Positions 4,901 to 38,873 of a DNA stretch of 39,123 nucleotides are shown here, piece by piece. Source of the stretch: a virus; the IMG/VR virus record IMGVR_UViG_3300021356_000054, positions 1 to 39,123 of that record, one strand, 5' to 3'. Position numbers and translations under genes: made by a program. Position 1 is the first letter of the stretch; the number at the start of each line of letters is the position of its first letter. The notes under the pieces are model-generated. The model saw only the letters and a list, made by a program, of their open reading frames with translations. It searched no databases and was not told where the DNA came from.

Positions 4901-5174
4901 TTACAAGTTTAACGAGGGAACTCTTATCAAAGAGTTCCAATCGTATATCGATTCTACATACGGAGCGCACTATTGCCAAGGAGGATTCCAATCCTCTGAA
5001 GTAATTGTTGATCGTGGCCATGGATTAGGATTCTTCCTAGGCAACGTTGATAAATATAATGCTAGGTATGGTAAGAAAGGAACCGTAGAAGATCATCGTA
5101 AGGATTTGATGAAGGTACTACATTATGCATTGCTCGCCTTAAATGAGCATGATCGTCTAAATAAAGGAAAATAA
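4881..5174 (+). CDS. DUF3310-like small protein
   Basis: 97 residues, overlapping the ATPase gene by 20 bases, with its ribosome site GAGGAG inside that gene. The core has G-FFLGNVDKYNARYGKKG followed by DLMKVLHYALLAL. This fits the DUF3310 (SaV-like) pattern of F-x-x-GN-x-x-KY-x-R-x-x-KG followed by DL-x-K-A-x-x-YL, found in many phages and sometimes called nucleotide kinase-like, though the biochemical role is unsettled. It sits between the ATPase and the sliding clamp gene. Family placement is from memory of the motif. Confidence 0.5.
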   Translation: MKKPAINYKFNEGTLIKEFQSYIDSTYGAHYCQGGFQSSEVIVDRGHGLGFFLGNVDKYNARYGKKGTVEDHRKDLMKVLHYALLALNEHDRLNKGK

Positions 5175-5176
5175 TT

Positions 5177-5842
5177 ATGAAAATCTCAAGTGAAACTATT
5201 AGTATACTCAAAAACTTTGCTGGAATTAATTCCAACTTAGTATTTAAACCAGGAAAAGAACTCAAAACTATTTCTGAAGCTAAAACGATTATGGCAAAAG
5301 CTTCTATTTTGGAAGACTTCCCTGGCGAATTTGGTGTATATGACCTTAACGAGTTTCTATCTCTTTACAATCTTATGAATGATCCTGATCTTACATTTAC
5401 AGATCACTATTTGTTAATGTCTGATGGATCTCAAAAGATTAAATATTTCTATTCTGAAATTGATATTCTAACACAACCAAGCAAAGATATTAATATGCCT
5501 GAATGCGAAGTTGTTTTTGATATCACATCCGATACATTGGATAAAATTCGAAAAGCAGCTGCTGTTCTTGGTCATTCGGAATTGAAATTTGCATGTGATG
5601 GTGATCAAATCGTGGCATCAGTATTCGATGAAAAGGATTCAACTGCTAACACGTTTGATATTGATCTGGGTGTCTCATCATCGTCAACGTTTAATTACGT
5701 CTTTAGTATTTCTAATTTAAAAATGCTACAAGGCGACTACAAAGTTTCGATCTCATCAAAGCTTATTTCTAATTGGAGAAATGCTGATAATCCTTTGGAT
5801 TATTATATCGCTTTGGAGAAATCGTCAAGTTTCGGTGTATAA
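5177..5842 (+). CDS. 45: gp45, DNA polymerase sliding clamp
   Basis: 221 residues, close to the T4 clamp length (228). The sequence shows the gp45 pattern: an N-terminal MKISSETISILKNFAGIN, LTFTDHYLLMSDGSQKIKYFY in the first clamp domain, and a C-terminal segment with isolated aromatic and acidic residues. gp45 forms a trimeric ring that tethers gp43 to DNA and, in T4, also activates late transcription. The gene lies two bases after the DUF3310-like gene and before gp44/gp62, which load the ring. Its stop codon overlaps a TATAAATA late-type box. Confidence 0.92.
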   Translation: MKISSETISILKNFAGINSNLVFKPGKELKTISEAKTIMAKASILEDFPGEFGVYDLNEFLSLYNLMNDPDLTFTDHYLLMSDGSQKIKYFYSEIDILTQPSKDINMPECEVVFDITSDTLDKIRKAAAVLGHSELKFACDGDQIVASVFDEKDSTANTFDIDLGVSSSSTFNYVFSISNLKMLQGDYKVSISSKLISNWRNADNPLDYYIALEKSSSFGV

Positions 5843-5845
5843 ATA
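5838..5845 (+). promoter_or_regulatory. T4-type late promoter box TATAAATA
   Basis: Exact match to the T4 late -10 consensus, overlapping the stop codon of gene 45 and about 100 bases before the small acidic protein. A second AT-rich stretch (5881-5889), just before the conserved hairpin, could be an alternative start region. Confidence 0.6.
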
Positions 5846-5889
5846 ACTATGCACAGAAAAAATTCTCATAATACTATGAGGATAATATT

Positions 5890-5913
5890 GGAAATGCCGA
5901 TGGTCGGGTTTCC
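5890..5913 (+). promoter_or_regulatory. Conserved leader hairpin, copy 1
   Basis: Outer stem GGAAA (5890-5894) pairs with TTTCC (5909-5913). Inside is the core TGCCGATGGTCGGG, in which CCGA pairs with TCGG around the loop TGG. The hairpin ends 33 bases before the start codon of the small acidic protein. The same core with a different but complementary outer stem occurs at 10711-10734. Probably a structured mRNA leader that controls stability or translation. Confidence 0.7.
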
Positions 5914-5946
5914 ATCAATTAGTCTACTTTGCAAAGGAGAAGAAAA

Positions 5947-6228
5947 ATGACTGAAGAAGTAACTGCAGCAACTGAAGCTGCACCAGAGGAGCAAGCCGCT
6001 CCAAGCCTTTCACTACAAGATATTGCTACTGTAGCGCAAATTATCGATATTTGCTCTAAGCGTGGTGCTTTCGAAGGTGGTGAATTGGAAGCAGTTGGCG
6101 CTGTAAGAAATCGTGTTGTAGCATTCCTACAAGCGGCAGCACCAGCACAAGGTGAGGAAGTACCAGAAGGTGAAGTACCTGCTGGGGATGATCTTCCTGC
6201 CGATGAAGCTGACGAAGACGCAGCTTAA
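5947..6228 (+). CDS. Small acidic conserved phage protein, probably late or virion-associated
   Basis: 93 residues; start chosen at 5947 because AAAGGAG precedes it at the normal distance. The middle (LSLQDIATVAQIIDICSKRGAFEGGEL, given here in parts) predicts helices around a RGAF turn. The tail is very acidic and rich in Pro, Glu, Ala and Asp (about residues 68-93). Similar short proteins with a conserved RGAF segment occur in marine T4-like phages, from memory, without known function. A late-type promoter, a structured leader and a strong terminator of its own indicate a separately and perhaps highly expressed late gene inside the replication cluster. Confidence 0.75.
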   Translation: MTEEVTAATEAAPEEQAAPSLSLQDIATVAQIIDICSKRGAFEGGELEAVGAVRNRVVAFLQAAAPAQGEEVPEGEVPAGDDLPADEADEDAA

Positions 6229-6243
6229 TCTAATTAGCTTAAT

Positions 6244-6277
6244 GCAGGGGTAGCTCCCCTGCGCACTTTTAATTTTA
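6244..6277 (+). terminator. Rho-independent terminator
   Basis: GCAGGGG (6244-6250), loop TAGCT, CCCCTGC (6256-6262), followed by a T-rich stretch. It closes the single-gene late unit of the small acidic protein before the clamp-loader genes. Confidence 0.85.
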
Positions 6278-6293
6278 TTATGAAGGATATATT

Positions 6294-6551
6294 ATGGATC
6301 GCACTGAAAACGCACGCTTAATCGAAGCACTCAAAAAAGGTACAGTAACTGTAACATTTCAAAAGATTGACTCAGATGAAATTCGAGTCATGCCTTGTAC
6401 TCTCAACCCAACTGTTTTAAAAGCCAATGGAATCGAAACGGTAATTGAAAGTGTCAACCCTGATACTGATCATATTGCAGTTTGGTCTCTTGACAAAGAT
6501 GCATGGAGGTCATTTCGTGTATCAACAGTTCTTGGTTGGGAGGTACTATAA
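6294..6551 (+). CDS. WYL_2/DUF2693-type SH3-like small protein
   Basis: 85 residues. GTVTVTFQKID near the N-terminus, RVMPCTL in the middle and VWSLDKDAWRSFRVSTV near the end match the pattern of DUF2693 (Pfam WYL_2, an Sm-like SH3 barrel), a short family found just beside clamp-loader genes in T4-like phages. The role is unknown; a small nucleic-acid or protein-binding barrel is likely. It has an AAGGAT ribosome site and its stop codon shares one base with the gp44 start, so it is translationally coupled to the clamp loader. Confidence 0.6.
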   Translation: MDRTENARLIEALKKGTVTVTFQKIDSDEIRVMPCTLNPTVLKANGIETVIESVNPDTDHIAVWSLDKDAWRSFRVSTVLGWEVL

Positions 6552-7486
6552 TGACAGAATTTCTATGGGTTGAAAAGTATCGTCCACAAAAAATCAAGGA
6601 TTGTATTTTACCAAAACACATTAAATCCACATTTGAAGATATTGTCAAAGGAGGTGACCTACACAATATGCTTCTTACCGGTTCAGCCGGGCTAGGTAAA
6701 ACTACTGTTGCTAAAGCTTTATGTAACGAACTTGAATTGGACTACTTACTTATCAATGGATCTGAAGAATCTGGCATTGACACTTTGCGTAATAAAATTA
6801 AACAATTCGCTTCATCAGTATCACTACAAGGTGGCTATAAGGTAGTCATACTTGATGAAGCGGATTACCTTAATGCGCAATCAACTCAACCAGCACTTCG
6901 TGGATTTATTGAAGAATTTTCATCTAATTGTAGGTTTATTCTAACCTGTAATTTTAAAAACCGAATTATTGATCCACTACATTCTCGTTGTACAACAATT
7001 GAATTTAATGTATCTAAAAAAGATTCAGCCACTCTATGTGGTCAATTCCTTAATAGGGTTGGTGATATATTGGAAAATGAAAATATCACCTATGACAAAA
7101 AGGTAGTTGCTGAATTAATTATGAAGCACATGCCTGATTGGCGTAAAGTTCTAAATGAATTACAACGATATTCAAGTAGTGGCGTAATTGATACTGGTAT
7201 TCTGGTATCTTTATCTGAAGTTTCCTTAAATGATTTGATGATTCATCTAAAGGAAAAAAACTTCAAAGCAATGCGTCAATGGGTTGCTAATAATATTGAT
7301 TCTGAACCAGCTGCAATTTATCGTAAGATATATGATAACATGTCTGATTATATTGAACCGTCAAGTATACCACAATTGGTATTAATCTTGGCTGATTACC
7401 AATATAAAAACTCTTTTGTTGCTGATCATGAATTAAACACTGTTGCTTGTTTAACTGAAGTTATGGCTGGGGTTCAATTTAAATGA
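6551..7486 (+). CDS. 44: gp44, clamp loader ATPase subunit
   Basis: 311 residues, T4-like length. The N-terminal FLWVEKYRPQ is the usual RFC-type opening. Walker A is GSAGLGKT at residues 44-51, Walker B is ILDEADYL, and the SRC arginine-finger motif (HSRCTTIEF) follows. gp44 and gp62 form the complex that opens and loads the gp45 ring with ATP. The ATG at 6551 is chosen over an upstream ATG at 6503, which would overlap the previous gene by 49 bases and lacks a clamp-loader sequence before FLWVEKYRP. Confidence 0.95.
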   Translation: MTEFLWVEKYRPQKIKDCILPKHIKSTFEDIVKGGDLHNMLLTGSAGLGKTTVAKALCNELELDYLLINGSEESGIDTLRNKIKQFASSVSLQGGYKVVILDEADYLNAQSTQPALRGFIEEFSSNCRFILTCNFKNRIIDPLHSRCTTIEFNVSKKDSATLCGQFLNRVGDILENENITYDKKVVAELIMKHMPDWRKVLNELQRYSSSGVIDTGILVSLSEVSLNDLMIHLKEKNFKAMRQWVANNIDSEPAAIYRKIYDNMSDYIEPSSIPQLVLILADYQYKNSFVADHELNTVACLTEVMAGVQFK

Positions 7487-7863
7487 ACCCATTTGAATAC
7501 CTAAACGCAATCAACACAACTAAAAAGGACATCATGGTGGATGATGTAGCTGAAAAAGCATACACTCCATTCATGGTTAATCGAGGACTGTCTTATTTTC
7601 CAGATACAGTTCTATTTGCTAATGAAATGAATTTAAATCATCATCTTGACAATCGTCTTCAATTCGATTTTTTTATAAATATAATCAGAAAGAAGAAAAG
7701 GTTTTCTAAATGGGCTAAGGCCAGTGAGTTAGAAAATATAGATGTCATTAAAGAATATTATGGTTATAGCAATGAAAAAGCTAAATCCGTTTTACCATTA
7801 TTTAATGATGAACAAATTGAAATTATAAAAACAAGGATTTATAAAGGTGGAAAACGAAAATAA
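7483..7863 (+). CDS. 62: gp62, clamp loader small subunit
   Basis: 126 residues, shorter than T4 gp62 (187) but like the form in marine T4-like phages. The segments MNPFEYLNAIN, FMVNRGLSYFPDTVLFANEMN and LQFDFFINIIRKKKRFSKWAK are typical. It forms the clamp loader with gp44 (one gp62 to four gp44 in T4). The start ATG overlaps the gp44 stop by four bases (ATGA), the usual arrangement for coupled expression of the two subunits. The end overlaps the regA start. Confidence 0.9.
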   Translation: MNPFEYLNAINTTKKDIMVDDVAEKAYTPFMVNRGLSYFPDTVLFANEMNLNHHLDNRLQFDFFINIIRKKKRFSKWAKASELENIDVIKEYYGYSNEKAKSVLPLFNDEQIEIIKTRIYKGGKRK

Positions 7864-8272
7864 TGTAGAAATCTCTTGGTCACCAGCTTCCATGCTGGAG
7901 ATCACACTAAATGAACCTGATGACTTTTTAAAAATCAGGGAAACCCTAACTCGTATTGGAGTGGCTTCAAGGAAAGATTCAAAACTATATCAGTCTTGTC
8001 ATATATTACATAAACAAGGCAGATATTTTATTGTGCACTTTAAAGAGTTATTTTTATTAGATGGAAAACCATCTAACTTATTGTTAAATGATATTCAACG
8101 TAGAAATACAATTGCTACGTTATTAGCAGATTGGGGATTAATTACTTTTGTTAATGCTGAGCAAGCTAAAGATATTGCTCCATTGAGACAAATTAAAGTA
8201 ATACCATATAAAGAAAAAGCTAATTGGGACTTATGCCCTAAGTATAATATAGGCAATAGTAATAAGGAGTAA
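7847..8272 (+). CDS. regA: RegA translational repressor
   Basis: 141 residues. From residue 16 on it follows T4 RegA closely: MLEITLNEPDDFLKIRETLTR, LYQSCHILHKQGRYFIVHFKE, and near the end W-x-L-x-PKYNIGN. RegA binds start regions of early mRNAs and blocks ribosome binding. The start used here is GTG at 7847 with AAGGA upstream. An in-frame ATG at 7892 would give a product starting exactly where T4 RegA starts but has no visible ribosome site, so the N-terminus is uncertain by 15 residues. The gene overlaps gp62 by 17 bases. Confidence 0.92.
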   Translation: MENENNVEISWSPASMLEITLNEPDDFLKIRETLTRIGVASRKDSKLYQSCHILHKQGRYFIVHFKELFLLDGKPSNLLLNDIQRRNTIATLLADWGLITFVNAEQAKDIAPLRQIKVIPYKEKANWDLCPKYNIGNSNKE

Positions 8273-8275
8273 GTT

Positions 8276-9028
8276 TTGGCTATTACATCCAGTGGACAAG
8301 TTAGTATATCTGATGTAGTTAGTGAGTTTAATTTAGGCACTAGTCAGGGTGTGGATTTTGATGACTTAAGATATATTGATCCATGGTTAGCTAGACCCCA
8401 AAGAATTAGTTTTGAACAAATACATATGACTGACTTTTATTCTGCTAGTGTAAAAAGCGCAAACATAACAATGAGGCCTCAAAATAACGATGATGAAATC
8501 AATAGAGCTGGTTATGGAACTTATAAAGGGCATGGTTTTACTATTACTGGTGGAGAATCTGGAGCCTCAGTAGGTTCATTTGGAAGTATAAGTAGAAATT
8601 TATATTTTAGTACAGGTCAACAACTAACCGGTATAGTCTTTGAAGGTACTGTCGACTCATCAACAGGTACTACTGGTGCAGTTAATATTTTTAAACGTGG
8701 CAGTGGAAATAATGGTTGGTCTAAAATAAAATTTAGATTTAATGATAAACCATGGAGATATGGAGATGTTACGAGTGACACCACCATCGTGAATTATGAT
8801 TTAGAACTTAATCGATCTGATGCAGATTCGTTTTCTCAAGTATCTGGTACTCAGCATAATGGGATTTATGCTTATGGTTGGAGATATGCATGGACCAACT
8901 ATAATTCAACTTCAGACGTTGGAAAAATTGCATCTATGATGAGAACAGGTCTTAGTTCTGGTCAATGGAACTCTAGCACCAATACCTATAATAGCAATGG
9001 TTATTTTGCAATTAAAATAATTGTATAA
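8276..9028 (+). CDS. Fibre-like or minor structural protein, TTG start
   Basis: 250 residues, opening with MAITSSGQVSISDVVSEF and later RISFEQIHMTDFYSAS. This SSGQVS...SDFY pattern is common at the N-termini of phage tail fibre and minor virion proteins. The rest is rich in Gly, Ser, Thr and Asn with no Cys and no membrane segment, as in beta-structured adhesins. The start is TTG at 8276, with a strong AAGGAG seven bases upstream and no in-frame ATG that would keep the conserved N-terminus. It follows regA directly and begins a late-looking cassette whose Arg codons are mostly AGA, unlike gp44 or gp43. Confidence 0.6.
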   Translation: MAITSSGQVSISDVVSEFNLGTSQGVDFDDLRYIDPWLARPQRISFEQIHMTDFYSASVKSANITMRPQNNDDEINRAGYGTYKGHGFTITGGESGASVGSFGSISRNLYFSTGQQLTGIVFEGTVDSSTGTTGAVNIFKRGSGNNGWSKIKFRFNDKPWRYGDVTSDTTIVNYDLELNRSDADSFSQVSGTQHNGIYAYGWRYAWTNYNSTSDVGKIASMMRTGLSSGQWNSSTNTYNSNGYFAIKIIV

Positions 9029-19059: not shown

Positions 19060-19136
<77 letters not shown>

Positions 19137-19151
19137 AAAAAGGAGACTAGT

Positions 19152-19334
19152 ATGAGATTTTGTGGATATGATTTTATAGTAGAAGAAGATGGCACTATTA
19201 TATTCGATAAAGAAGTTACTTTACGAATGCTAGATTTAGAAATGGGAGACACCTTCTTTATTACACGAGATGAAAGTACAGGTCAAGTAATTTTAAAAAG
19301 AGACAGAAAAATAGATTTTGATGTCATAGCCTGA
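19152..19334 (+). CDS. Small AbrB-like protein between two tRNAs
   Basis: 60 residues with AGGAG upstream. DGTIIFDKEVTLRMLDLEMGDTFFITRDESTGQVILKR follows the AbrB/SpoVT swapped-hairpin pattern (a strand, K-E-x, L-x-(L/I)-x-x-GD-x-F-x-I, then x-V-I-L). This would imply DNA binding, but the match is by eye only. The stop codon TGA at 19332-19334 lies inside the tRNA-Leu acceptor stem, so gene and tRNA overlap by six bases. Confidence 0.5.
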   Translation: MRFCGYDFIVEEDGTIIFDKEVTLRMLDLEMGDTFFITRDESTGQVILKRDRKIDFDVIA

Positions 19335-19416
19335 GTGGTGGAATTGGTAGACACAAGGGACTTAAAATCCCTCGATCGTAAAGGTCATGCCGGTTCAAGT
19401 CCGGCCTCAGGTACCA
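19329..19416 (+). tRNA. tRNA-Leu (anticodon UAA)
   Basis: 88 bases, class II with a long variable arm and encoded CCA. Acceptor GCCTGAG (19329-19335) pairs with CTCAGGT (19406-19412), with one G-U pair at the end. Anticodon stem GGGA/TCCC has loop CTTAAAA, giving UAA. It reads UUA, common in AT-rich genes. Confidence 0.93.
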
Positions 19417-29804: not shown

Positions 29805-31199
29805 ATGAACAGTTTTTTATCTCATCAAATAAACGAAGCGGTGGCTCTTTCTCCGGCTCAACTTGATAAACCCAATTCAAGTACCGGAGAATCCCGTGCC
29901 GACATTCTTATAAGATTAATCAAAGGTGGTAAACCAATAGAATTGGCCAAGGGTGGTACAGTTACTATTGAAAATACTCCTGAATTAATCAGTCAAATAG
30001 AAAAATGGCGTGATGATGATTCAGATAAAAAATCTCCAATTCCAATGTTAACTGTTGATGGACAAGCAATTACTACATCTAAGTTAGCTAAATCAAAAGT
30101 TTTTGGTGGTGGTACCGGTGGAGCCGGTGGTGGCACTGAAAATACTAAAATCACAGAATCTCATCAGTGTGTTTTATTGCAAGCAATGCTTGATTATGGT
30201 ACACATGATGCAGACTATTACACTCCAGAAATTTTAACAAAAGCATATAAAAAAGTATTTGTTGATGCTTCAATAAAAGAAATTTTAAGCGTTGACGATA
30301 CATGGTTTATGTCTTCATATAAATCAGCATTATATCTTGTTAAAAATAAATACGTAAATAAGAATCACACATTCCATAGAAATGATAAAGTGATGAATGG
30401 TATTTACGCGCTTAAATCAGCAGCATTTAAAAACTCTGGGTTCCCTAATTTAAAAGATGATAAGTGGAACCCTGGTGATATATGGGCTGTAGAAAAAGGA
30501 TTTAAATTAAAAGAGTTGCCCTCTGATTCTGTTAAATCCTTAAATGAAAAAATATTAGAACTATTTGCTACCAGAAGATTGGTAGGTATTTCCCTTAAGC
30601 AGATCAAATCAAAGAAAGCTGACGCTAAAGGAAAAGAATATAATGTAAAAAGACCGCCCGATACTGACGATCATAAAGTATTTAAAGTATTATTACAAGG
30701 CGAGCAACGTGGAACATTTTGGTCAAGTAAAGGTTCCACCATTCAATTTGATAAGGGCCAAGGCGCATTAAATCTAAAAGATAATAGCCCTGGTGCTGCA
30801 GTTAAAGCTGAAATTAAAGGTAAGTCTGCTCGTGGTGGAGGCGCATCATGGGGTGTAATGCAAGATGCAGCTAGACAAGTATTTAGAAAGAAAATACCAG
30901 ATCACAAAGCTGGCGTTTTTAAAATTGCTAAGAAAATTAAAAGAGGTGATAAGAAAGCAGTCAATGTTATGTGGACTCTTTTTAATCATTTCTATAGAGA
31001 TGTTAGTAGAGAAGAATTTGAAAAGGAATTAGCATTGAAAGACTTTAATTGGATTTCAGCTAAATTAGGTTCTTTGTATATTTGTTATTATGTGTCAATC
31101 AACACTGGACCAAAAGCAAATAGGTTTATTACAAAAATTGTTAATTATGCTGGATCTAAATCAGAAGATTCAAGCGCGTACATTAAGGTATACGAATAA
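29805..31199 (+). CDS. Capsid-tagged internal protein, possible nuclease fold
   Basis: 464 residues starting MNSFLSHQINEAVAL, with INE/A as a candidate prohead-protease site. A Gly-rich linker lies near residues 104-113. Then DKWNPGDIWAVEKG, later GISLKQI, could form the D ... S-x-K centre of a PD-(D/E)XK-like fold, but the motif E is unclear. The end is a conserved-looking helical part. I do not know the exact family; marine T4-like phages have a similar large protein beside the ligase-fold protein that follows. The stop shares one base with the next start. Confidence 0.5.
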   Translation: MNSFLSHQINEAVALSPAQLDKPNSSTGESRADILIRLIKGGKPIELAKGGTVTIENTPELISQIEKWRDDDSDKKSPIPMLTVDGQAITTSKLAKSKVFGGGTGGAGGGTENTKITESHQCVLLQAMLDYGTHDADYYTPEILTKAYKKVFVDASIKEILSVDDTWFMSSYKSALYLVKNKYVNKNHTFHRNDKVMNGIYALKSAAFKNSGFPNLKDDKWNPGDIWAVEKGFKLKELPSDSVKSLNEKILELFATRRLVGISLKQIKSKKADAKGKEYNVKRPPDTDDHKVFKVLLQGEQRGTFWSSKGSTIQFDKGQGALNLKDNSPGAAVKAEIKGKSARGGGASWGVMQDAARQVFRKKIPDHKAGVFKIAKKIKRGDKKAVNVMWTLFNHFYRDVSREEFEKELALKDFNWISAKLGSLYICYYVSINTGPKANRFITKIVNYAGSKSEDSSAYIKVYE

Positions 31200-32446
31200 T
31201 GAAATCATTTAAAAATCAATTGGCGGAACAGGCTGGCAAGAATACTCATATGACTCATTTAGAGGATTTGATTCTTGACGGTGGCGTTAAGGGGGCCCGC
31301 CAGGCTATCCTCGCACTTAGATCATTGCGAGATATGTTACAAGGTAACTCAAAATCTGCAGTCGATGTTACAGTCAAGTGGGACGGGGCCCCCGCTATAT
31401 TCGCAGGTGAAGATCCCAGAGATGGTAAATTCTTCATTGCTAAAAAAGGTGTATTCAATAAAGATCCAAAGGTATATAAAAGCCATGAAGATATTGAAGC
31501 CGATAATGCAGGTAAAAAAGAATTAATTAAAAAATTAAAAATAGCATTTGATAACTTAAAAGGTCTTGGAATTAAAGGTGTTATCCAAGGCGACTTTATG
31601 TTTGATAAGTCAGATATTAAAACTGATACAATTGATGGTCAAAAGTTTATTACCTTCCATCCAAATGCTGTTGTTTATGCTGCACCAGTTGGTAGTGAAT
31701 TAGCTAAAAGTATTCAAAAAGCTAACATGGGTATTGTCTGGCATACAGTTTATAGTGGTTCTAGTTTTGAAACTATGACTGCAGCTTTTGGTAAAGAAAT
31801 TAGTTCAAAATTAAAACAAACATCAAAGGTGTGGATGCAAGATGCAACCCTTGATGATTTATCAGGTACCGCGACATTAACAGCTAAAGAAACCGCTGAG
31901 CTAAATAAAAAATTATCAGAAGCTGGTAAAATATTTAGAACAATTTCTTCTTCAACTCTTAAAACAATTGAAGGGAATAAAGAACTTAATCTTATGATTA
32001 ATGTATATAATAATACTAAAGTAAGAGCAGGTCAAAAGGTAACAGATACTAAAAAGCATGCAACTGGATTAGTTATGTATGTCCAATCCAGATACCAAAA
32101 AGAAATTGACAAAAGAAGTAGTCAAGCTGGTAAGGATAAACAAATTGCAAAAAGAGATGAGATATTAAAGTTTTTTGACAAATCTAACCTAAAAAACTTA
32201 AAATTAATATTCGATTTGCAAAATTTAGTTGTAGATAGCAAATTAATTATTATAAATAAACTAAACAAACTTAGCAAAATTGGTACGTTTGTTAAAACAA
32301 AATCCGGATTTAAAGTAACCAGTCCTGAAGGCTTTGTTGCTATAGATCGTATGGAAGGTGGAGCGGTTAAACTTGTTAATAGAATGGAATTTTCTACTAA
32401 TAACTTTAGCAAAGATATTATCAAAGGCTGGGACAGTCCAGGCTAA
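31199..32446 (+). CDS. Capsid-tagged ligase-fold nucleotidyltransferase-like protein (DUF6267 type)
   Basis: 415 residues starting MKSFKNQLAEQAG; LAE/Q is the candidate cleavage site. VDVTVKWDGAPAIF has the K-x-DG motif I of ATP-dependent ligases and capping enzymes (K60, D62, G63). GVIQGDFMF fits motif III, EGFVAID motif IV and AVKLVNR motif V. This suggests a covalent nucleotidyl-lysine enzyme. I recall similar cyanophage proteins labelled DUF6267. If packaged, it might seal or cap nucleic acid on entry. Not close to T4 gp30 or the T4 RNA ligases. Confidence 0.6.
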   Translation: MKSFKNQLAEQAGKNTHMTHLEDLILDGGVKGARQAILALRSLRDMLQGNSKSAVDVTVKWDGAPAIFAGEDPRDGKFFIAKKGVFNKDPKVYKSHEDIEADNAGKKELIKKLKIAFDNLKGLGIKGVIQGDFMFDKSDIKTDTIDGQKFITFHPNAVVYAAPVGSELAKSIQKANMGIVWHTVYSGSSFETMTAAFGKEISSKLKQTSKVWMQDATLDDLSGTATLTAKETAELNKKLSEAGKIFRTISSSTLKTIEGNKELNLMINVYNNTKVRAGQKVTDTKKHATGLVMYVQSRYQKEIDKRSSQAGKDKQIAKRDEILKFFDKSNLKNLKLIFDLQNLVVDSKLIIINKLNKLSKIGTFVKTKSGFKVTSPEGFVAIDRMEGGAVKLVNRMEFSTNNFSKDIIKGWDSPG

Positions 32447-32464
32447 TGGGAACCGAGGATAACG

Positions 32465-32854
32465 ATGAAAAGTTTCAAAGAACATGAGGCAGAACTATCT
32501 GCCGATTCTCCAGATACATCGGAAGCAATGACGATGCAGCAGAGAATGAAAGCAAAAGCTACATTCCGAAAAAATAAAGCCAAAATAGCATTAGGCAAAA
32601 AGAAAGCCGCAAAAAGACTAGCATCTGATGAAAAAATTAAAGCACGCTCAGTTAAGAAAGCGCGTGAACTCATTATCAAAAAACTTCTTAAAAATAAAAA
32701 GAAAGCAGATTTATCTTTCTCAGCTCGTCAAGGGTTAGAGAAAAAACTTGATAAGAAAAAAGGTGCAATCGCAAGGATTGCTAAAAAGTTAAAGCCTCAA
32801 GTGAAAAAAGCCGATAGAGAAAAATTAAAAAGAAATAAAGGTGGTTCTAAATAA
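32465..32854 (+). CDS. Capsid-tagged, very basic internal protein
   Basis: 129 residues beginning MKSFKEHEAELSAD. After residue 25 it is almost all Lys, Arg and Ala with short hydrophobic repeats (KATFRKNKAKIALGKKKAAK), so it should bind DNA. Such a composition fits an internal virion protein packed with the genome, like T4 IPI-IPIII. No L/I-x-E is present right after the tag; AELSAD or SEA may serve. AACGATG context with GAGGATAA upstream as ribosome site. Confidence 0.65.
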   Translation: MKSFKEHEAELSADSPDTSEAMTMQQRMKAKATFRKNKAKIALGKKKAAKRLASDEKIKARSVKKARELIIKKLLKNKKKADLSFSARQGLEKKLDKKKGAIARIAKKLKPQVKKADREKLKRNKGGSK

Positions 32855-34194
32855 TGATTAAAAGTTTTAGCGATTATTTATCAGAAGCAAAAGGTGACGT
32901 ATATTTCGTGTTTGGTAGATTTAATCCACCAACAAATGGCCATGAGAAATTATTTGACAAGCTAAAATCTACGGCAGGTAGTGGCACCTATCGTATCTAT
33001 GCATCTAAGTCACAAGATCCAAAAAAGAATCCTCTATCATTTAAAGACAAAATAAAGTTCCTTAGAAAAATGTTCCCTAAGCATGCCCGTAGTATTATGG
33101 CTGATGCTGATGTTAGAACTGCATTGGATATTGTAGTTAAATTATATGACCAAGGATATACATCGGCAACTATGATTGCTGGTTCAGATAGAGTAAAAGA
33201 ATTTGAAGCACTATTAAACAAATATAATGGTGTAAAATCAAGGCATGGTTTTTATAACTTTGAAAAGGGTATTAAAGTTATTTCAGCCGGCGAAAGAGAT
33301 CCTGATGCAGACGATGTATCAGGTATGTCAGCTTCTAAGTTAAGAGCTTATGCTACAGATAATGATTTAGAAAACTTCTCAAAGGGAATGCCTAAGGGAT
33401 ATAAAGATGCTAAATCATTATTTAATGCAATTAGAAAAGGAATGGGATTAAAAGAATCTCATGATCATCGCAAACATTTAGAACTAAAACCTGTATCTGA
33501 AACAAGAGAAAAGTTTGTACAAGGTGAATTATATAATGTTGGTGATGAAGTTGTATTAAAAGAAAATGGTAGTATTGGTACAATTCAAAGATGCGGTACT
33601 AACTTTCTAGTAGTTGAATTTGGAGAATGGAAAAAAAGAGTTTGGTTAGACCAAGTTGAACTATTAGAAAAAGACGAAAGAAAGAAAAAACAAAAACAAG
33701 ATCAAGATATTAAAGATCGCCCTGGGACACAGCCAAAAGATTACTATGGTAAAGATGCCAAAGGTAAAGAAATGTCAAAGGGGACTAAGCAAGCAAGAGC
33801 CAGACACTTTGAGAAAGGTGCTAAAATGGATGATGATAATCCAGCAGCATATAAAAAGGCTCCAGGCGATGCATCCGCAAAAACAAAACCATCAAAGCAT
33901 ACTAAGAAATACCAAAAAATGTTTGGAGAAGAAACATTATCTTTGGCTGAGTTTATGATGGACGAAGGTAAAGCAGATGCAGCATTAAAGAAAAAAGCCG
34001 ATAAGACCGGTATGCCTTTAGGTATCTTAAGACAAGTATTTAATCGTGGTGTAGCAGCTTGGAGAACAGGCCATAGACCAGGGACAAATTCAATTCAATG
34101 GGGATTAGCAAGAGTTAATTCTTTTGTTACTAAATCAAAAGGTACATGGGGCGGGGCTGATAAAGACCTAGCCGCTAAGGTAAGAGGAAGTTAA
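32854..34194 (+). CDS. Capsid-tagged nucleotidyltransferase (TxGH type) with C-terminal GHRPGT domain
   Basis: 446 residues starting MIKSFSDYLSEAKGD; LSE/A fits prohead cleavage. Residues 15-200 are a NMNAT-like nucleotidyltransferase: VYFVFGRFNPPTNGHEKL (T27-H30), then AGSDR and GMSASKLRAYA as the ISSTxxR motif. The middle (about 230-275) looks like a KOW/SH3 barrel (GDEVVLKENGSIGTIQR). The end has GMPLGILRQVFNRGVAAWRTGHRPGTN, a small phage domain of the DUF5824 kind (name from memory). Whether it makes NAD or another dinucleotide is open. One-base overlaps on both sides. Confidence 0.65.
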   Translation: MIKSFSDYLSEAKGDVYFVFGRFNPPTNGHEKLFDKLKSTAGSGTYRIYASKSQDPKKNPLSFKDKIKFLRKMFPKHARSIMADADVRTALDIVVKLYDQGYTSATMIAGSDRVKEFEALLNKYNGVKSRHGFYNFEKGIKVISAGERDPDADDVSGMSASKLRAYATDNDLENFSKGMPKGYKDAKSLFNAIRKGMGLKESHDHRKHLELKPVSETREKFVQGELYNVGDEVVLKENGSIGTIQRCGTNFLVVEFGEWKKRVWLDQVELLEKDERKKKQKQDQDIKDRPGTQPKDYYGKDAKGKEMSKGTKQARARHFEKGAKMDDDNPAAYKKAPGDASAKTKPSKHTKKYQKMFGEETLSLAEFMMDEGKADAALKKKADKTGMPLGILRQVFNRGVAAWRTGHRPGTNSIQWGLARVNSFVTKSKGTWGGADKDLAAKVRGS

Positions 34195-34613
34195 TGAAAT
34201 CATTTAAAGAACATAAAGTTCTAGATTTAACAGAAATGACAGATGCTGAAATAGATGCGTATGCAAGAAGTTTATCTGAAGAGCAATTAGATGAAATCAT
34301 TGGTAAACTTGTTAAAGGTGCTGGTAAACTGGCATTTAAAGGTGCAAAGGCTGCATATAAAAGGTATGGTACCACGGATGGCAAAGCTAAAGCTGCTGCA
34401 CAAAAAGTTGTAAAAATGAAAAAGAAAAGAGAAGCTTTAGAAAAATTACAAGCAGCTCGTGATCAAATTAGAAAAGAAAAAGAAGAATTAAAAAAGAAAA
34501 AAGAATCAGGTAGAATACCACCTAATACAATCGATAGAATTAGAGCTATGATTAAGAAAAAAATAGCTAAAGTTAATGATGCTGAAGAAAAAGTAAAAAA
34601 GGCTACTAAATGA
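34194..34613 (+). CDS. Capsid-tagged basic coiled-coil protein
   Basis: 139 residues starting MKSFKEHKVLDLTEMTD; LTE/M is the candidate cut site. Residues 40-65 have GKLVKGAGKLAFKGAKAAYKRYG, then a long Lys/Glu-rich helix. AGAGGAAG lies upstream. Likely a DNA-binding internal virion protein. Overlaps the next gene by four bases. Confidence 0.6.
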   Translation: MKSFKEHKVLDLTEMTDAEIDAYARSLSEEQLDEIIGKLVKGAGKLAFKGAKAAYKRYGTTDGKAKAAAQKVVKMKKKREALEKLQAARDQIRKEKEELKKKKESGRIPPNTIDRIRAMIKKKIAKVNDAEEKVKKATK

Positions 34614-35122
34614 AATCATTTAAAGAATTTAACGAAGACAATTTACAAGAAATTGATTTTCAAAAATGGCTTGGTAAAACTTTAGATAGAAAATTAAATT
34701 CTAAAAAGTATGCTAAAGCTATTAGAGTTTATTTAGATTGGAGAAAAAAGCATCCAAAACAAGGCTCAATGGGTTTATCTAAAGCTGCTGGTATTACGGG
34801 CGTAGATATTAAACAGCTCCAAAGAGTTTTACATCAGATGATTGATGCTGGTAAGTTACCAAAGCATTTGGCTACTAATCCAAATATGCTAAAAAAAGAA
34901 AATGTACAGGAAGGTCCAGGTGGTAGCGAATCTTGGGAAGCTGGCTTTAAAAGAAGAGTTGTAAAAACTACTAAACCAGAACATAAAGAGAAAGGTTATA
35001 ACTGGAGAATTAAAGGTAAGGAAAGACCTGAGGTAACAATTAAGTTGTATAAAAGCAAGCCAGATTTTGCTGAGTTCAAAAAGCAAATGAAAAGAGTTGC
35101 TGGCCACGAGTTTGGTGGTTAA
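34610..35122 (+). CDS. Capsid-tagged protein of unknown function
   Basis: 170 residues starting MKSFKEFNEDNLQEID; LQE/I is the likely processing site, and a second, NVQE/G, lies near residue 99. Between them KAIRVYLDWRKKHPKQGSMGLSKAAGITGVDIKQLQRVLHQMI looks like a helix-turn-helix. The C-terminal part is basic (KPEHKEKGYNWRIKGK). DNA binding is inferred. Confidence 0.55.
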   Translation: MKSFKEFNEDNLQEIDFQKWLGKTLDRKLNSKKYAKAIRVYLDWRKKHPKQGSMGLSKAAGITGVDIKQLQRVLHQMIDAGKLPKHLATNPNMLKKENVQEGPGGSESWEAGFKRRVVKTTKPEHKEKGYNWRIKGKERPEVTIKLYKSKPDFAEFKKQMKRVAGHEFGG

Positions 35123-35133
35123 TAAATATAACT

Positions 35134-35802
35134 ATGAATAACTTTAAAGAACATAGTAGTTTAATGGAAGGTGTTAACGATCCTTCTATTTTTAAAGCGG
35201 TTTTCCTTGCTGGTGGTCCGGGAAGTGGTAAATCGTTTGTTGTTGGTAAAACTGCATTAAAGGCTTTAGGCTTTAGATTAATTAATTCAGATGATGCATT
35301 TGAAAAGGGATTAAAAAAAGCCGGATTGACAATGGACCCTGATGATATTTTTTCAGCTCAAGGTCAAGCAGTAAGAGCAACAGCCAAAGCTATAACTGGT
35401 AAAGTAATGACTAGAGCTATTGAGGGAAGAATGGGTTTGGTTATTGATGGTACAGGTAAAGACTATGCTAAGATTAAAAAGCAAGTAGATTTACTTAGAC
35501 AAATTGGGTATGCTGTTCATATGATTTTTGTGAATACAGATTTAGAAACAGCATTGGATAGAAACGATAAACGTCCAAGATCATTACCAAAGGATGCGGT
35601 AACTAAAATGTGGAAGGACGTACAAAAGAATATTGGTAAATTCCAAGCATTGTTTAGAAATAGAATTACTATTGTAGATAATTCAGAAGGATCAGATATT
35701 GAAAAACAATCATTGGAAGCATATAAAGACATTAAGACGTGGGCAGCAAAACCCCCAGAAAATGCTATCGCCGTCAAATGGATTAAAGGACAAAAGAAAT
35801 AA
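35134..35802 (+). CDS. Capsid-tagged P-loop kinase (zeta toxin-like)
   Basis: 222 residues starting MNNFKEHSSLMEGVN; LME/G is the candidate cut. Walker A is FLAGGPGSGKS (27-34), followed by FRLINSDDAFE, VIDGTGKD and an NDKRPRSLP lid segment. This is the layout of zeta toxin-type and related small-molecule kinases. It could phosphorylate a nucleotide, sugar nucleotide or RNA end in the newly infected cell. The substrate is not predicted. It shares one base with the next gene. Confidence 0.65.
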   Translation: MNNFKEHSSLMEGVNDPSIFKAVFLAGGPGSGKSFVVGKTALKALGFRLINSDDAFEKGLKKAGLTMDPDDIFSAQGQAVRATAKAITGKVMTRAIEGRMGLVIDGTGKDYAKIKKQVDLLRQIGYAVHMIFVNTDLETALDRNDKRPRSLPKDAVTKMWKDVQKNIGKFQALFRNRITIVDNSEGSDIEKQSLEAYKDIKTWAAKPPENAIAVKWIKGQKK

Positions 35803-36179
35803 TGCATACTTTTTTAGAACACATTGAAGAAAGATTTGGTTTATATGAAGGGCAACACGTTCCTTTGGAACAGCCTATGATTGAAATTGACGAGGAAAAA
35901 CAGCCCGAGTTAAATAAACCAAAAAGATCAAGTGGTAAAAAGAAATATGTAGTTTACGTTAAAAATCCACAAACTGGTAACGTAAAGAAAATAGAATTTG
36001 GAGATGAAAAGGGTGGACTATCATCTAAGATAAATGATAGAGAAGCAGCTAGGAACTTTGCGTCACGCCATAGCTGTGATACCAAGAACGATAAATTATC
36101 GCCTGGGTATTGGGCATGTAGATTGCCACGTTACGCAAAAGATCTGGGGTTAAAAGGTGGTGGAAATTACTTTTGGTAA
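35802..36179 (+). CDS. Capsid-tagged DUF5872-like protein
   Basis: 125 residues starting MHTFLEHIEERFGLYEG; LYE/G (or IEE/R) may be cut. From residue 46: KKYVVYVKNPQTGNVKKIEFGD, then NDREAARNFASRHSCD and YWACRLPRYAKDL. This FG ... R-x-x-F-x-x-RH-x-C ... YW-x-CR pattern occurs in small phage proteins named DUF5872 (from memory). Conserved His and Cys may bind metal. Overlaps the next gene by 23 bases. Confidence 0.6.
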   Translation: MHTFLEHIEERFGLYEGQHVPLEQPMIEIDEEKQPELNKPKRSSGKKKYVVYVKNPQTGNVKKIEFGDEKGGLSSKINDREAARNFASRHSCDTKNDKLSPGYWACRLPRYAKDLGLKGGGNYFW

Positions 36180-36453
36180 GCCATATTGGGAAGAAGAAGG
36201 TCATATAAGAGTATTTGATCCTTCTGAAGAAGATGCTGAATTTGTCTGGCATCGCGATATGGAAGACAGAGAAATAGAGGTTTTAGAAGGCGAGGGTTGG
36301 CAGTTCCAAGTGGAAAAATGCTTACCGTGGCTTTTAAAAAAAGGAATGGTATTCGATATTCGAAAGGGAGAATATCATAGATTAATAAAAGGGGTTACTC
36401 CCCTCAAATGTAGGGTTTATTTATATGCCAACAGCGCAAGAACAGAGAGCTGA
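36157..36453 (+). CDS. Cupin-like small protein, GTG start
   Basis: 98 residues from GTG 36157 with AAAAGG upstream. EVLEGEGWQFQVEKCLPWLLKKGMVFDIRKGEYHRLIKG is the cupin pattern (G-x-GW, later G-x-x-(F/Y)-x-I-x-x-G-x-(Y/W)HR). Such small cupins are found in T4-like marine phage structural clusters. No capsid tag. Confidence 0.55.
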   Translation: MVEITFGKPYWEEEGHIRVFDPSEEDAEFVWHRDMEDREIEVLEGEGWQFQVEKCLPWLLKKGMVFDIRKGEYHRLIKGVTPLKCRVYLYANSARTES

Positions 36454-36724
36454 GCAATCAGCCAGACTCGATAGAATCGAGCAAAAAATCGACCAAATGT
36501 CGGAGGCAATTATTGCTTTGGCTCGTGCCGAGGAGAAGATAATTACCCTTACAGAATTTGGAAAACAACAAGGAGAACAGATATTAACTCTTATAAATAG
36601 AGTTGATAAGCTTGAAGAATTGGTGCGTAAAAACGCATCAACTGTAGAAATTATTAACCGACTATTCTGGATAGTAACCGCGGCAGCAGCCACAGCTATT
36701 ACAGGAATGCTTTTCATACAATAG
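36425..36724 (+). CDS. Coiled-coil protein with C-terminal membrane anchor (XhlA-like)
   Basis: 99 residues. Residues 8-70 form a coiled coil (RLDRIEQKIDQMSEAI, LINRVDKLEELV); residues 78-97 are hydrophobic (RLFWIVTAAAATAITGMLFI). The layout is like XhlA-type proteins of phage lysis cassettes. Role in lysis is only suggested by topology. It overlaps the cupin-like gene by 29 bases. Confidence 0.5.
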   Translation: MPTAQEQRAEQSARLDRIEQKIDQMSEAIIALARAEEKIITLTEFGKQQGEQILTLINRVDKLEELVRKNASTVEIINRLFWIVTAAAATAITGMLFIQ

Positions 36725-36734
36725 GAGAAAAATT

Positions 36735-37445
36735 ATGAAAATGAAATCGACAGATAAGATTACCCAAAGCGTTGCTGAAACAGTGAGCGCTGTAGTAGAG
36801 GGTAAGTACAAAAAGAAAGAGAAAGAGGAAGCAGTAAAATATCCTCATATGATGTACGATCCAAAAACCGGTAAAGGTGTAGAAGCTAAAAATGAAAAAG
36901 ATCATGACGAGCTTTCTAAAAAGGGTTATACACATGATAAACCAGAAAAGGTTGACGAAGTAGAAGAACCAAGAGCTAAAGGCGAAAAAGATTTTAAAGC
37001 CAAGCATAAGGTTAAAAAGTCAGGCGAAAAAGAAGATGGTACTGTAGTTAAAGAAGAAGATGAGGAAGAAAAAGAAGATGAAGTTGAAGAAGCTTTTTCA
37101 GCCGCTCAAATTAAAAAAGCAGTAGCCATGGCTAAAAAGTCTGGTGGTCAAATGACACCCGTTTCTAAAAAGATTGATAAAATCAAGAAAGGATTGTCCG
37201 ATCATCCTGATGTAAAAAAGGCTCTACAATTAGCTAATGAATCTTTTGAAGTTGAAGCAGCTCAGGCTGAAGCAATTAAAATGAACGAAGCTATTGATAA
37301 GAAAGCAGCATATCAAAAAGTATTCCAAGCAGCTTTGAAAAAGTTTGGTGTTAAAGGCCCAGGCGAATTAAAAGGTGATAAGAAAAAAGAATTTTTTGAT
37401 TACGTTGATTCTAAATACGACGCAGGCGAAAACGAAACTGACTAA
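36735..37445 (+). CDS. Highly charged virion-type protein
   Basis: 236 residues with TAGGAG upstream. KYPHMMYDPKTGKGVEAKNEKDHDEL is followed by a long Lys/Glu-rich region (about 75-120) and a C-terminal helical part (AAYQKVFQAALKKFGVKG, FFDYVDSKYD). The opening is MKMKSTDK with AVVEG near residue 22, a variant of the tag and cut site. It may be an internal or core protein. Function not known. Confidence 0.55.
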   Translation: MKMKSTDKITQSVAETVSAVVEGKYKKKEKEEAVKYPHMMYDPKTGKGVEAKNEKDHDELSKKGYTHDKPEKVDEVEEPRAKGEKDFKAKHKVKKSGEKEDGTVVKEEDEEEKEDEVEEAFSAAQIKKAVAMAKKSGGQMTPVSKKIDKIKKGLSDHPDVKKALQLANESFEVEAAQAEAIKMNEAIDKKAAYQKVFQAALKKFGVKGPGELKGDKKKEFFDYVDSKYDAGENETD

Positions 37446-37446
37446 A

Positions 37447-37465
37447 ATTATCTAGTATAGATAAT
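37447..37465 (+). other. Perfect inverted repeat before a start codon
   Basis: ATTATCTA (37447-37454), loop GTA, TAGATAAT (37458-37465). It begins one base after one stop and ends two bases before ATG 37468. No Shine-Dalgarno site is visible there. It may act as a weak processing or regulatory hairpin. Confidence 0.6.
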
Positions 37466-37467
37466 AT

Positions 37468-37839
37468 ATGATGAAAGTATTTGATAAACTAACGCATAAA
37501 AACTTTGAGCTCTTCGCATCACAGCATTATAATAATCCAGAATGCACAAGTGTTGAAGAGTTCAAAGAAGATTTAAGTAGATTTAAGTATCTAAAAAGAT
37601 TACTTAAACGCTATGAGCAAACAGGTGATTTGCAGGAAAGACTAATTCTAAACCATCTTATAGTATTATATAATGTGTTTGGAATTAAAGCGGCAAATCG
37701 AATGATGTGGTATAAGGTTGAAGAAGCTCACTGGCCAGTAATTAAAACTTTTTTAGTTTTTTTACATTACTTACCAGAAGATTATAAAATCGAAGTACCA
37801 TTGGATAAAATAGTAATAGATAGGTTAAGAAAACTATAA
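37468..37839 (+). CDS. Conserved phage protein of unknown function
   Basis: 123 residues, helical. FKEDLSRFKYLKRLLKRYEQTGDLQERLILNHLIVLYNVFG, and later KTFLVFLHYLPED, look strongly conserved among marine T4-like phages (from memory) but have no assigned role. No capsid tag. It shares one base with the next gene. Confidence 0.65.
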   Translation: MMKVFDKLTHKNFELFASQHYNNPECTSVEEFKEDLSRFKYLKRLLKRYEQTGDLQERLILNHLIVLYNVFGIKAANRMMWYKVEEAHWPVIKTFLVFLHYLPEDYKIEVPLDKIVIDRLRKL

Positions 37840-38432
37840 TGGGAATCATTTCAAGAACAGGTGATTTATTTTATGCCTTTAGGTTCCTAAAGCTTTTAGT
37901 GACGCCTTGGGAAAAAACAGTAGCATTTGAGCTTGGGATTATTGATGAGAATGGTAAGGTACTTAAGAAAGGTTCTCAAAGAAATACTCCTGAAGAAAAA
38001 TCAGCATATACTGTTTTCCATAGATTAGTTTTTAATTTAAAAAGACTACTTAATAAATTACCATTTGGTAAATCAAAGTTAGCTTCATATGCATCAGCAT
38101 TATTTCTTATTAAAGAAGAAACTGGAATGTCTGATGAACAAATACGTAAAATTTTAAATGATGTATTTGATGATTTAGAAGAAACAATTGATTTATCTGA
38201 AAGTGCAGCTTGGTTTGAAAAAGATGGAAAATTGGCACCAGGGACATATACATTGGTTGAAGAAATTGCTTCACCGATGACAGGTGAAATCGTTGGACGT
38301 ATAAATAATAAAGTAAAGGTATTAGATTTTGTTGATTCAAGCGGTACTATATTTGGTTTAAACGTTTATCAAGTTGAACACGTAGAGACAAAACAAAAAT
38401 TATTAGTTACAAGCCAGGATTTAAAGAGATGA
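37839..38432 (+). CDS. Conserved phage virion-region protein
   Basis: 197 residues. TGDLFYAFRFLKLLVTPWEKTVAFELGIID, then SAYTVFHRLVFNLKRLLNKLPFGKSKLASYASALFLIKEETG, is a conserved helical block; the C-terminal third (FEKDGKLAPGTYTL, EIVGRINNKVKVLD) is beta-type. No enzyme motif. It resembles hypothetical proteins kept beside the previous gene in marine T4-like phages. Overlaps the next start by four bases. Confidence 0.65.
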   Translation: MGIISRTGDLFYAFRFLKLLVTPWEKTVAFELGIIDENGKVLKKGSQRNTPEEKSAYTVFHRLVFNLKRLLNKLPFGKSKLASYASALFLIKEETGMSDEQIRKILNDVFDDLEETIDLSESAAWFEKDGKLAPGTYTLVEEIASPMTGEIVGRINNKVKVLDFVDSSGTIFGLNVYQVEHVETKQKLLVTSQDLKR

Positions 38433-38656
38433 AAAGTTTTAAAGATATGTGGGAAGATGCAGCAGCTAATTCAGCCGGTGGCGGTGGAATTGATGGTATT
38501 GGCATTGGAGCAAAGGGCGAACCTGGGGTTAAGAAAAAAGACAAAAAGAAAAGAATTTACGATGGTAGAACTAAAGAAGGTCGTAAATTTGTAGAAAGAA
38601 TATTAGCCAGAAGAAAGGCTGCTGAAAATAAAAGGGTAAAAAATGAAACAGTTTAA
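38429..38656 (+). CDS. Capsid-tagged small basic protein
   Basis: 75 residues starting MKSFKDMWEDAA. A Gly-rich stretch (GGGGIDGIGIGAKGEPG) follows, then a basic helix (KKKDKKKRIYDGR, FVERILARRKAAENKR). MWE/D could be the processing site. Likely a packaged DNA-binding peptide. Confidence 0.55.
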   Translation: MKSFKDMWEDAAANSAGGGGIDGIGIGAKGEPGVKKKDKKKRIYDGRTKEGRKFVERILARRKAAENKRVKNETV

Positions 38657-38873
38657 AGACTTAAGAGAAGATAAGTTCGACGTATCAAAAGAAAAGAATG
38701 TAGACCAATTAGCTAAAAAGCTTCAAATGTTGAGTGTACATGTTAGCAATTTAGAAAAGTTAGATAAGCAAGGCGAAGGTAAAGGCGAAATGGCCAAAGA
38801 TCTTAAAGTCTTCAAAGCTAAATATCTTGAACTACAAAAGGCTTTAACAAAATTAGAAAATAGATTAGTATAA
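38643..38873 (+). CDS. Capsid-tagged small coiled-coil protein
   Basis: 76 residues starting MKQFKDLREDKFD; LRE/D fits the cleavage pattern. The rest is a coiled coil (LAKKLQMLSVHVSNLEKL, YLELQKALTKLENRL). It overlaps the previous gene by 14 bases. Confidence 0.55.
   Translation: MKQFKDLREDKFDVSKEKNVDQLAKKLQMLSVHVSNLEKLDKQGEGKGEMAKDLKVFKAKYLELQKALTKLENRLV

Follow-up and report, generated by a model that had tools for sequence, protein, structure and literature searches.

The region between positions 29,805 and 38,873 of the viral record IMGVR_UViG_3300021356_000054 raises the question of why a series of genes with unrelated bodies should open with the same short peptide. The window analyzed here is the complete IMG/VR record, a 39,123-base fragment carrying what we take, from its open reading frames (ORFs) and general knowledge, to be the half of a T4-like genome devoted to replication (clamp, clamp loader, gp43, UvsX, gp41). 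Our analysis indicates that these peptides are very probably capsid-targeting sequences (CTS) of the T4 type, which would bind the prohead core, be cleaved by a gp21-type protease, and allow injection of the basic cargo behind them.

A 15-gene block follows the gp41 helicase, thyX, and several small genes. Ten block genes open with M-(K/N/H)-(S/T/N)-F-x-x-(H/F/Y/Q/M/L). The original prediction had counted at least nine genes with an M-x-S-F-K-x-H-like start, and all ten were found as written at their ATG codons. They are listed below in amino acids (aa) with their isoelectric point (pI) where noted; each gene is named by its start coordinate, and an arrow marks the predicted cut.

29805..31199, plus strand: tagged cargo 1, 464 aa, phrog_1462, slot-1 protein; tag MNSFLSHQINE↓ at 29805-29837.
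31199..32446, plus strand: tagged cargo 2, 415 aa, DUF6267 (PF19782); tag MKSFKNQLAE↓ at 31199-31228.
32465..32854, plus strand: tagged cargo 3, 129 aa, pI 10.7; tag at about 32465-32503.
32854..34194, plus strand: tagged cargo 4, 446 aa, cytidylyltransferase/NMNAT-like with DUF5824; tag MIKSFSDYLSE↓ at 32854-32886.
34194..34613, plus strand: tagged cargo 5, 139 aa, basic; tag MKSFKEHKVLDLTE↓ at 34194-34235, with a long spacer like that of T4 IPI.
34610..35122, plus strand: tagged cargo 6, 170 aa, basic; tag MKSFKEFNEDNLQE↓ at 34610-34651.
35134..35802, plus strand: tagged cargo 7, 222 aa, P-loop kinase (Zeta_toxin/AAA_33); tag MNNFKEHSSLME↓ at 35134-35169.
35802..36179, plus strand: tagged cargo 8, 125 aa, phrog_7595, basic; tag MHTFLEHIEE↓ at 35802-35831.
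36157..38432, plus strand: five untagged neighbors, mostly non-basic, serving as internal controls (36157, 36425, 36735, 37468, 37839).
38429..38656, plus strand: tagged cargo 9, 75 aa, pI 10.2; tag MKSFKDMWE↓ at 38429-38455, with a non-canonical M-W-E.
38643..38873, plus strand: tagged cargo 10, 76 aa, basic; tag MKQFKDLRE↓ at 38643-38669.

The tagged genes are thus not strictly contiguous, as the five untagged genes lie between 35802 and 38429. The core pattern M.{1,3}F..[FYHMWQL] occurred in 11 of the 15 module genes and in 2 of the 45 other window genes (Fisher p = 2.7e-7). When the first 60 residues of each protein were shuffled, core matches averaged 0.5 and never exceeded 5 over 20,000 trials. 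The core match in 37468 (MMKVFDKL...) is probably not a tag because its orthologs lack the remainder of the motif; cyanophage orthologs of this gene occupy the same module. An L/I-x-E had originally been noted in most of these genes within about 17 residues; a strict one was present in 8 of the 10 (INE, LAE, LSE, LTE, LQE, LME, IEE, and LRE), always within 14 residues of the start, and candidate cut sites fell at residues 9-14 in nine. Across orthologs from about 80 related contigs, the tag reads K2, S/T/N3, F4 (nearly universal, enriched 22.7-fold), K5, E/D6, H/F/Y/M7, L/I8, and E10, with H at position 7 enriched 21-fold and E at position 10 enriched 6-fold. Orthologs of 34610, for example, start MKTFEQYFTEG and MITFKDYITEG. 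An L/I-x-E-type site was found in 89% of tagged members and 25% of members of untagged families, a comparison in which the definition of a tagged member partly relies on the site itself for L/Y-type tags. The spacer from F..H to L-x-E differs in length within single families, as it does from T4 IPI to IPIII, and in two aligned families, DUF6267 being one, the tag was less conserved than the body (0.57 vs 0.78-0.89 and 0.47 vs 0.64-0.69).

The pattern coincides with the signal defined in T4, where mutational work assigned residues 4 and 7 (Y/F4 and F7) to targeting and residues 8 and 10 to processing, and where propeptides of 10-19 residues are cut after L/I-x-E (PMC9026906). The original prediction stated that T4 internal proteins begin MKTYQEFIAE. 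This held for IPII and IPIII (MKTYQEFIAE↓A), while IPI begins MKTFKEF and reads MKTFKEFTSTTTPVSTITE↓A, with a long spacer before its ITE as in window tags. Cutting IPI there leaves 95-19=76 residues, in agreement with the 76-residue mature protein of PMC3012670. The alignment with IPI-IPIII that had been proposed as a check shows position-by-position agreement, residues 4, 7, 8, and 10 included. T4 internal proteins are also described as basic, and the IPIII CTS is sufficient to carry a foreign protein into the head (PMC9026906). Two further T4 frames have CTS-like starts: the gene 61.1 protein (NC_000866 18966-19130, MKTFKEFIKED) and a 76-aa frame within annotated uvsW (114210-114440, MLLEFKQFLYEAS). 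Both are absent from the internal-protein list, and T4-like isolate relatives read MKSFKEVIYEAS/MKTFKEVIQEAS.

The bodies behind the tags were unrelated, as originally claimed: BLASTP among them (residue 15 onward) gave nothing below E = 0.15, and family scans placed four in different families, namely phrog_1462, DUF6267, cytidylyltransferase with DUF5824, and Zeta-toxin/AAA_33 P-loop kinase. The remaining bodies had weak family matches at most, or matches to phage families of unknown function. What the bodies share is charge. Without the first 12 residues, all ten had a pI of 9.3-10.9, compared with a median of 5.5 across the remaining 50 genes (p = 6e-7), which extends the earlier remark that very basic proteins occur among them. 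Of the earlier fold labels, nucleotidyltransferase and P-loop kinase were borne out by family scans, and the ligase fold is suggestive for 31199. This protein matches DUF6267 at 7.6e-101, with an invariant KWDG at residues 60-63. The core of its AlphaFold2 (AF2) model aligned by VIA with Trypanosoma brucei RNA editing ligase 1 (1xdn, Z 6.7) and T4 Rnl2 (Z 6.5), other RNA ligases being also among the best VIA alignments; Foldseek alone was not significant. An RNA-ligase-like nucleotidyltransferase fold is suggested by the model. Sequence searches against solved structures were uninformative for 29805, 31199, and 32854 and gave weak P-loop kinase matches for 35134, which also has a distant match to polynucleotide kinase. 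A role for the DUF6267 ligase-like protein and the kinase in RNA or DNA end repair would be a guess.

In the AF2 model of 29805 (pLDDT, the predicted local distance difference test, 84 overall), residues 1-11 score below 50 and order begins at residue 12, so the low-confidence stretch stops at the predicted cut. Orthologs retain I-x-E↓AV behind a variable spacer. A PD-(D/E)XK-like D...GISLK motif can be seen by eye in this protein; Foldseek and VIA found no relative of the predicted model, hence no fold match for PD-(D/E)XK, and a nuclease assignment is a guess at the level of the motif.

Natural exchange of the bodies was visible in the slot before DUF6267, which in related contigs holds different tagged proteins (phrog_1462, phrog_3060, phrog_13937, and one unassigned family). 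This swapping is consistent with CTS sufficiency as in T4. The tag also behaves as a clean removable prefix, as the S-SZBM1 homologue of DUF6267 starts MAKNTHLEHLEDD, exactly after the window tag region (MKSFKNQLAEQAG↓KNTHMTHLEDL). The tagged families that take the slot of 29805 in relatives (L014:8540-9988, L051:3744-4862, and L066:9000-9998) each carry a D...SLK/SHK motif; judged by this motif, they may be nuclease-like.

The presumed gp23 cut sites of relatives have the same form. Five of 10 related contigs, most of them fragments themselves, encode both a gp21-type protease (PF03420) and gp23. The gp23 N-termini of relatives read NFLGE↓A, NYISE↓A, NFMTE↓A, and NFIAE↓D, and that of S-CREM2 LLTE↓A, with cut positions presumed by analogy with T4. 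These sites, like SFLTE↓A of T4 gp23, share their form with the tag ends YLSE↓A and QINE↓A. In phage C48C1 (OQ984149 14434-14631), a GTG-started MRTFKELREAK, annotated from a later start, lies between the portal and protease genes; this tagged ORF occupies the place of T4 gp67/gp68, and its tag resembles that of 38643.

Published virion proteomes link the motif to particles. All 219 N-termini of S-CREM2 were checked, 52 from virion-detected and 167 from undetected genes. The strict rule (aromatic, two residues, F/Y/H, hydrophobic, x, E) matched 4 of the 52 and none of the 167 (p = 0.003): gp6 SAM (S-adenosylmethionine) hydrolase (MKDFDSFLEE), gp14 APH-like kinase (MKRFDAFLTE), gp136 (MQTFSMFFSE), and gp154 cytidylyltransferase (MKNFSSFLTE). 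Published virion mass spectrometry thus places all four strict-motif proteins of this relative in particles. Allowing Leu at the first position added gp13 (detected) and gp175 (undetected) with p = 0.003, and a looser long-spacer rule gave p = 0.03 with two undetected matches; as several motif versions were tried, these p values are somewhat optimistic. F/Y at positions 3-5 alone showed no enrichment in S-CREM2, so an aromatic residue alone does not make the signal. The virion-detected Cas9-like gp12 was left out of the counts. It has LRFASFMAEA from residue 17, behind a CTG codon, an offset that perhaps reflects a misplaced start. A cluster of virion-detected non-structural proteins in S-CREM2 (OR473000 3837-13331), comprising SAM hydrolase, Cas9-like nuclease, gp13, APH-like kinase, and gp15, looks like a tagged counter-defense island.

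The cytidylyltransferase of the module has been reported in CsCl-purified virions of S-CREM2 and S-SZBM1 (PMC10665884, PMC9146016), a citidylyltransferase in S-SM1 virions (PMC3037559), and NMNAT-like proteins in virions of S-SCSM1 and S-CBWM1 (PMC10665884, PMC9146016, PMC3037559, PMC9602691). The orthologs of 32854, S-CREM2 gp154 and S-SZBM1 140, are both tagged and virion-detected.

A tag-first scan of IMG/VR used degenerate DNA for MK-(S/T)-F-x-x-(F/Y)-h-x-E-A as the query and matched at least 120 contigs. Among the matches listed, 120 of 125 stood at the start of an ORF of 40 aa or more that had fewer than 60 open codons ahead of it, and the bodies formed at least 45 families (BLAST single linkage). 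Their median pI was 9.4, compared with 6.3 among the remaining ORFs on those contigs (p = 2e-9), and 84 of the 120 contigs (median 9 kb) carried a T4-like core gene. Complete scans with control queries matched 25 contigs when residue 10 was changed to Asp, 8 when residue 4 was changed to Val, and 17 when residue 7 was changed to Asp/Val; several of these matches still resemble real tag variants. Cargo families among the matches listed included adenylate kinase, GNAT, a DPBB domain, a lysozyme with a weak nucleotidyltransferase match, and an RNA ligase just under the Pfam cut-off. One contig encodes an Acb1 (L211:2104-2571; PF23474, E = 2.8e-23) against the cyclic oligonucleotide-based antiphage signaling system (CBASS), tagged MKTFREYLAE↓A; from its sequence, this Acb1 is possibly packaged and injected. 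The same contig has tandem paralogous small genes of about 80 aa at 3978-8389 (MNxxELKPGDYxRIT...LTPEEVMEIELSR).

Residue-level agreement with T4, the gp23 sites, basic bodies, body swapping, and virion mass spectrometry of relatives together make it very probable that the peptides are modular T4-type CTS, as the original prediction held. Several observations weigh against this conclusion. A strict L/I-x-E is absent from 32465 (ELSAD) and 38429 (MWE). In 32465 the targeting half MKSFKEH is intact, many orthologs read ELSE, and the canonical processing site seems, from the sequence, to have been lost. At position 7, H or Q takes the place of the T4 F in most window tags, and H7 is not among the substitutions described in the available portions of the T4 work. 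In S-SZBM1, the tagged 191 and 192 were not detected in the virion, the untagged module proteins 139 and 136 were, and a second statistical test on this phage was not significant, so that the tag is neither invariably seen in the virion nor the sole route into it. Virion detection comes from relatives rather than from this phage, no report of neo-N-termini was found in the readable literature, and gp21-gp23 of the phage itself are absent from the 39-kb fragment.

Among the alternatives, the best survivor proposes a core-binding (scaffold-interaction) peptide without injection, whose cargo would aid assembly or DNA condensation and stay, or be degraded, in the head. The small size and strong basicity of many cargos, the influence of T4 IPIII on head morphogenesis (PMC9026906), and the position of the tagged C48C1 protein beside the protease gene all suit this proposal. 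It is nevertheless unlikely, since in T4 the internal proteins, Alt, and reporters fused to the CTS all reach the host by ejection (PMC9026906) and the cargo includes enzymes with host-side substrates (SAM hydrolase, cytidylyltransferase, Acb1). Detection in S-CREM2 virions could instead be carry-over of abundant proteins, with the N-terminal match due to common descent of a few genes. The S-CREM2 authors raised carry-over themselves (PMC10665884), and the S-SZBM1 enrichment agrees with it in not being significant. Carry-over predicts no shared N-terminus, however, and the detected tagged proteins differ in annotated function while the strict motif is found in no undetected S-CREM2 gene, which leaves this explanation very improbable. 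A tag directing proteins elsewhere (a replication compartment, a membrane, or docking to a cell partner) is hardly plausible: short N-terminal amphipathic peptides are capable of such roles and the AF2 model of DUF6267 has a low-confidence helix at residues 2-12, but the tags lack the hydrophobic core of a signal peptide, agree with the CTS defined by experiment in T4, and have virion-detected homologues. Finally, a feature of translation initiation or of the mRNA (an AT-rich context at the start, early codons rich in Lys) with no peptide signal would suit the AT-rich genome and the operon's common K2 and overlapping start/stop codons, but is scarcely tenable given conservation at the residue level, the aromatic i/i+3 spacing, E/D6, and E10, the persistence of the residue pattern in T4 and the GC-richer S-CREM2 (47.9% G+C, PMC10665884), the association of the tag with basic cargo and virion detection and its absence from 43 of 45 other window genes, and the residue-10, -4, and -7 control scans.

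Other features of the window were recorded alongside the module. Candidate late promoter sites of the TATAAATA type were not clearly above chance and gave no timing evidence. A near DNA search with the right half of the window gave no phage match. At 19060-19416, tRNA genes Arg-TCT and Leu-TAA stand on either side of a small gene.

If the tags are T4-type CTS, the face formed by F4 and H/F/Y7 would bind the prohead core late in infection, and the tagged protein would be built into the prohead. A gp21 homologue would then cut after L/I-x-E, in this phage by analogy with T4, releasing basic mature proteins that would stay with the packaged DNA and, again as in T4, accompany it into the next host. 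The tag and its cargo would evolve as separate modules, with one signal serving nuclease-like, ligase-like, cytidylyltransferase, kinase, and small basic proteins. The cargo might provide early protection or takeover, nucleic-acid repair, or counter-defense; host-side takeover or counter-defense roles fit the SAM hydrolase and Acb1 examples. We also lean toward a broader proposal, in which the tag is a general exchangeable loading signal throughout T4-like phages and dozens of unrelated enzymes are pre-loaded in this group, so that defenses are met before phage gene expression. The pre-loaded set would include RNA repair (kinase and ligase), Acb1 against CBASS, and SAM hydrolase against restriction. 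If this is true, the tag predicts injected effectors from sequence alone.

We therefore read the tag as the CTS system of T4, which marine T4-like phages would have widened to carry a large payload of enzymes. The CTS, named by the Black laboratory (reviewed in PMC9026906 and PMC3012670), and its modular use in T-even phages were already known, and the loading idea is not new, as the CTS has been proposed as a way in which T4-like phages load varied proteins (PMC9026906). We found no open-access paper tying the CTS to marine T4-like phages or cyanophage virion enzymes, subscription papers lying outside the search. A shared T4-type targeting peptide would explain cyanophage virion enzymes that had been unexplained and suspected as contaminants. 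It offers a sequence rule for listing injected proteins in abundant marine T4-like phages, which have many genes of no known function, and points to early injected counter-defense through the tagged Acb1 and the tagged virion SAM hydrolase. The long-standing proposal of the CTS as a general loading mechanism becomes directly testable.

Compared with known systems, the window tags share with T4 internal proteins an N-terminal peptide of 10-19 residues, aromatics at 4 and 7, an L/I-x-E end, and unrelated basic bodies. T4 has three such proteins, whereas one region of the window has ten tagged genes, and the window cargo includes large enzymes (ligase-like, cytidylyltransferase, kinase) where T4 has small inhibitors only; all three T4 internal proteins inhibit GmrSD restriction enzymes (PMC12373910). 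T4 Alt is likewise an enzyme in the head, an ADP-ribosyltransferase processed by gp21 and injected (PMC9026906), but its N-terminus, MELITELFDED, departs from the F4/F7 pattern. The P1 Dar proteins and the ejection proteins of SPN3US and phiKZ are also packaged in the capsid, several are trimmed by a prohead protease, and some deliver anti-restriction functions (PMC12810830, PMC10052503), although they belong to other phage lineages and are likened here by description. The cyanophage virion enzymes themselves also belong in this comparison: the SAM hydrolase and kinase of S-CREM2 are tagged, as are the cytidylyltransferases of S-CREM2 and S-SZBM1, homologues of tagged 32854. These proteins were reported without any targeting signal, and none is named by the S-CREM2 authors in the available portions of their paper (PMC10665884).

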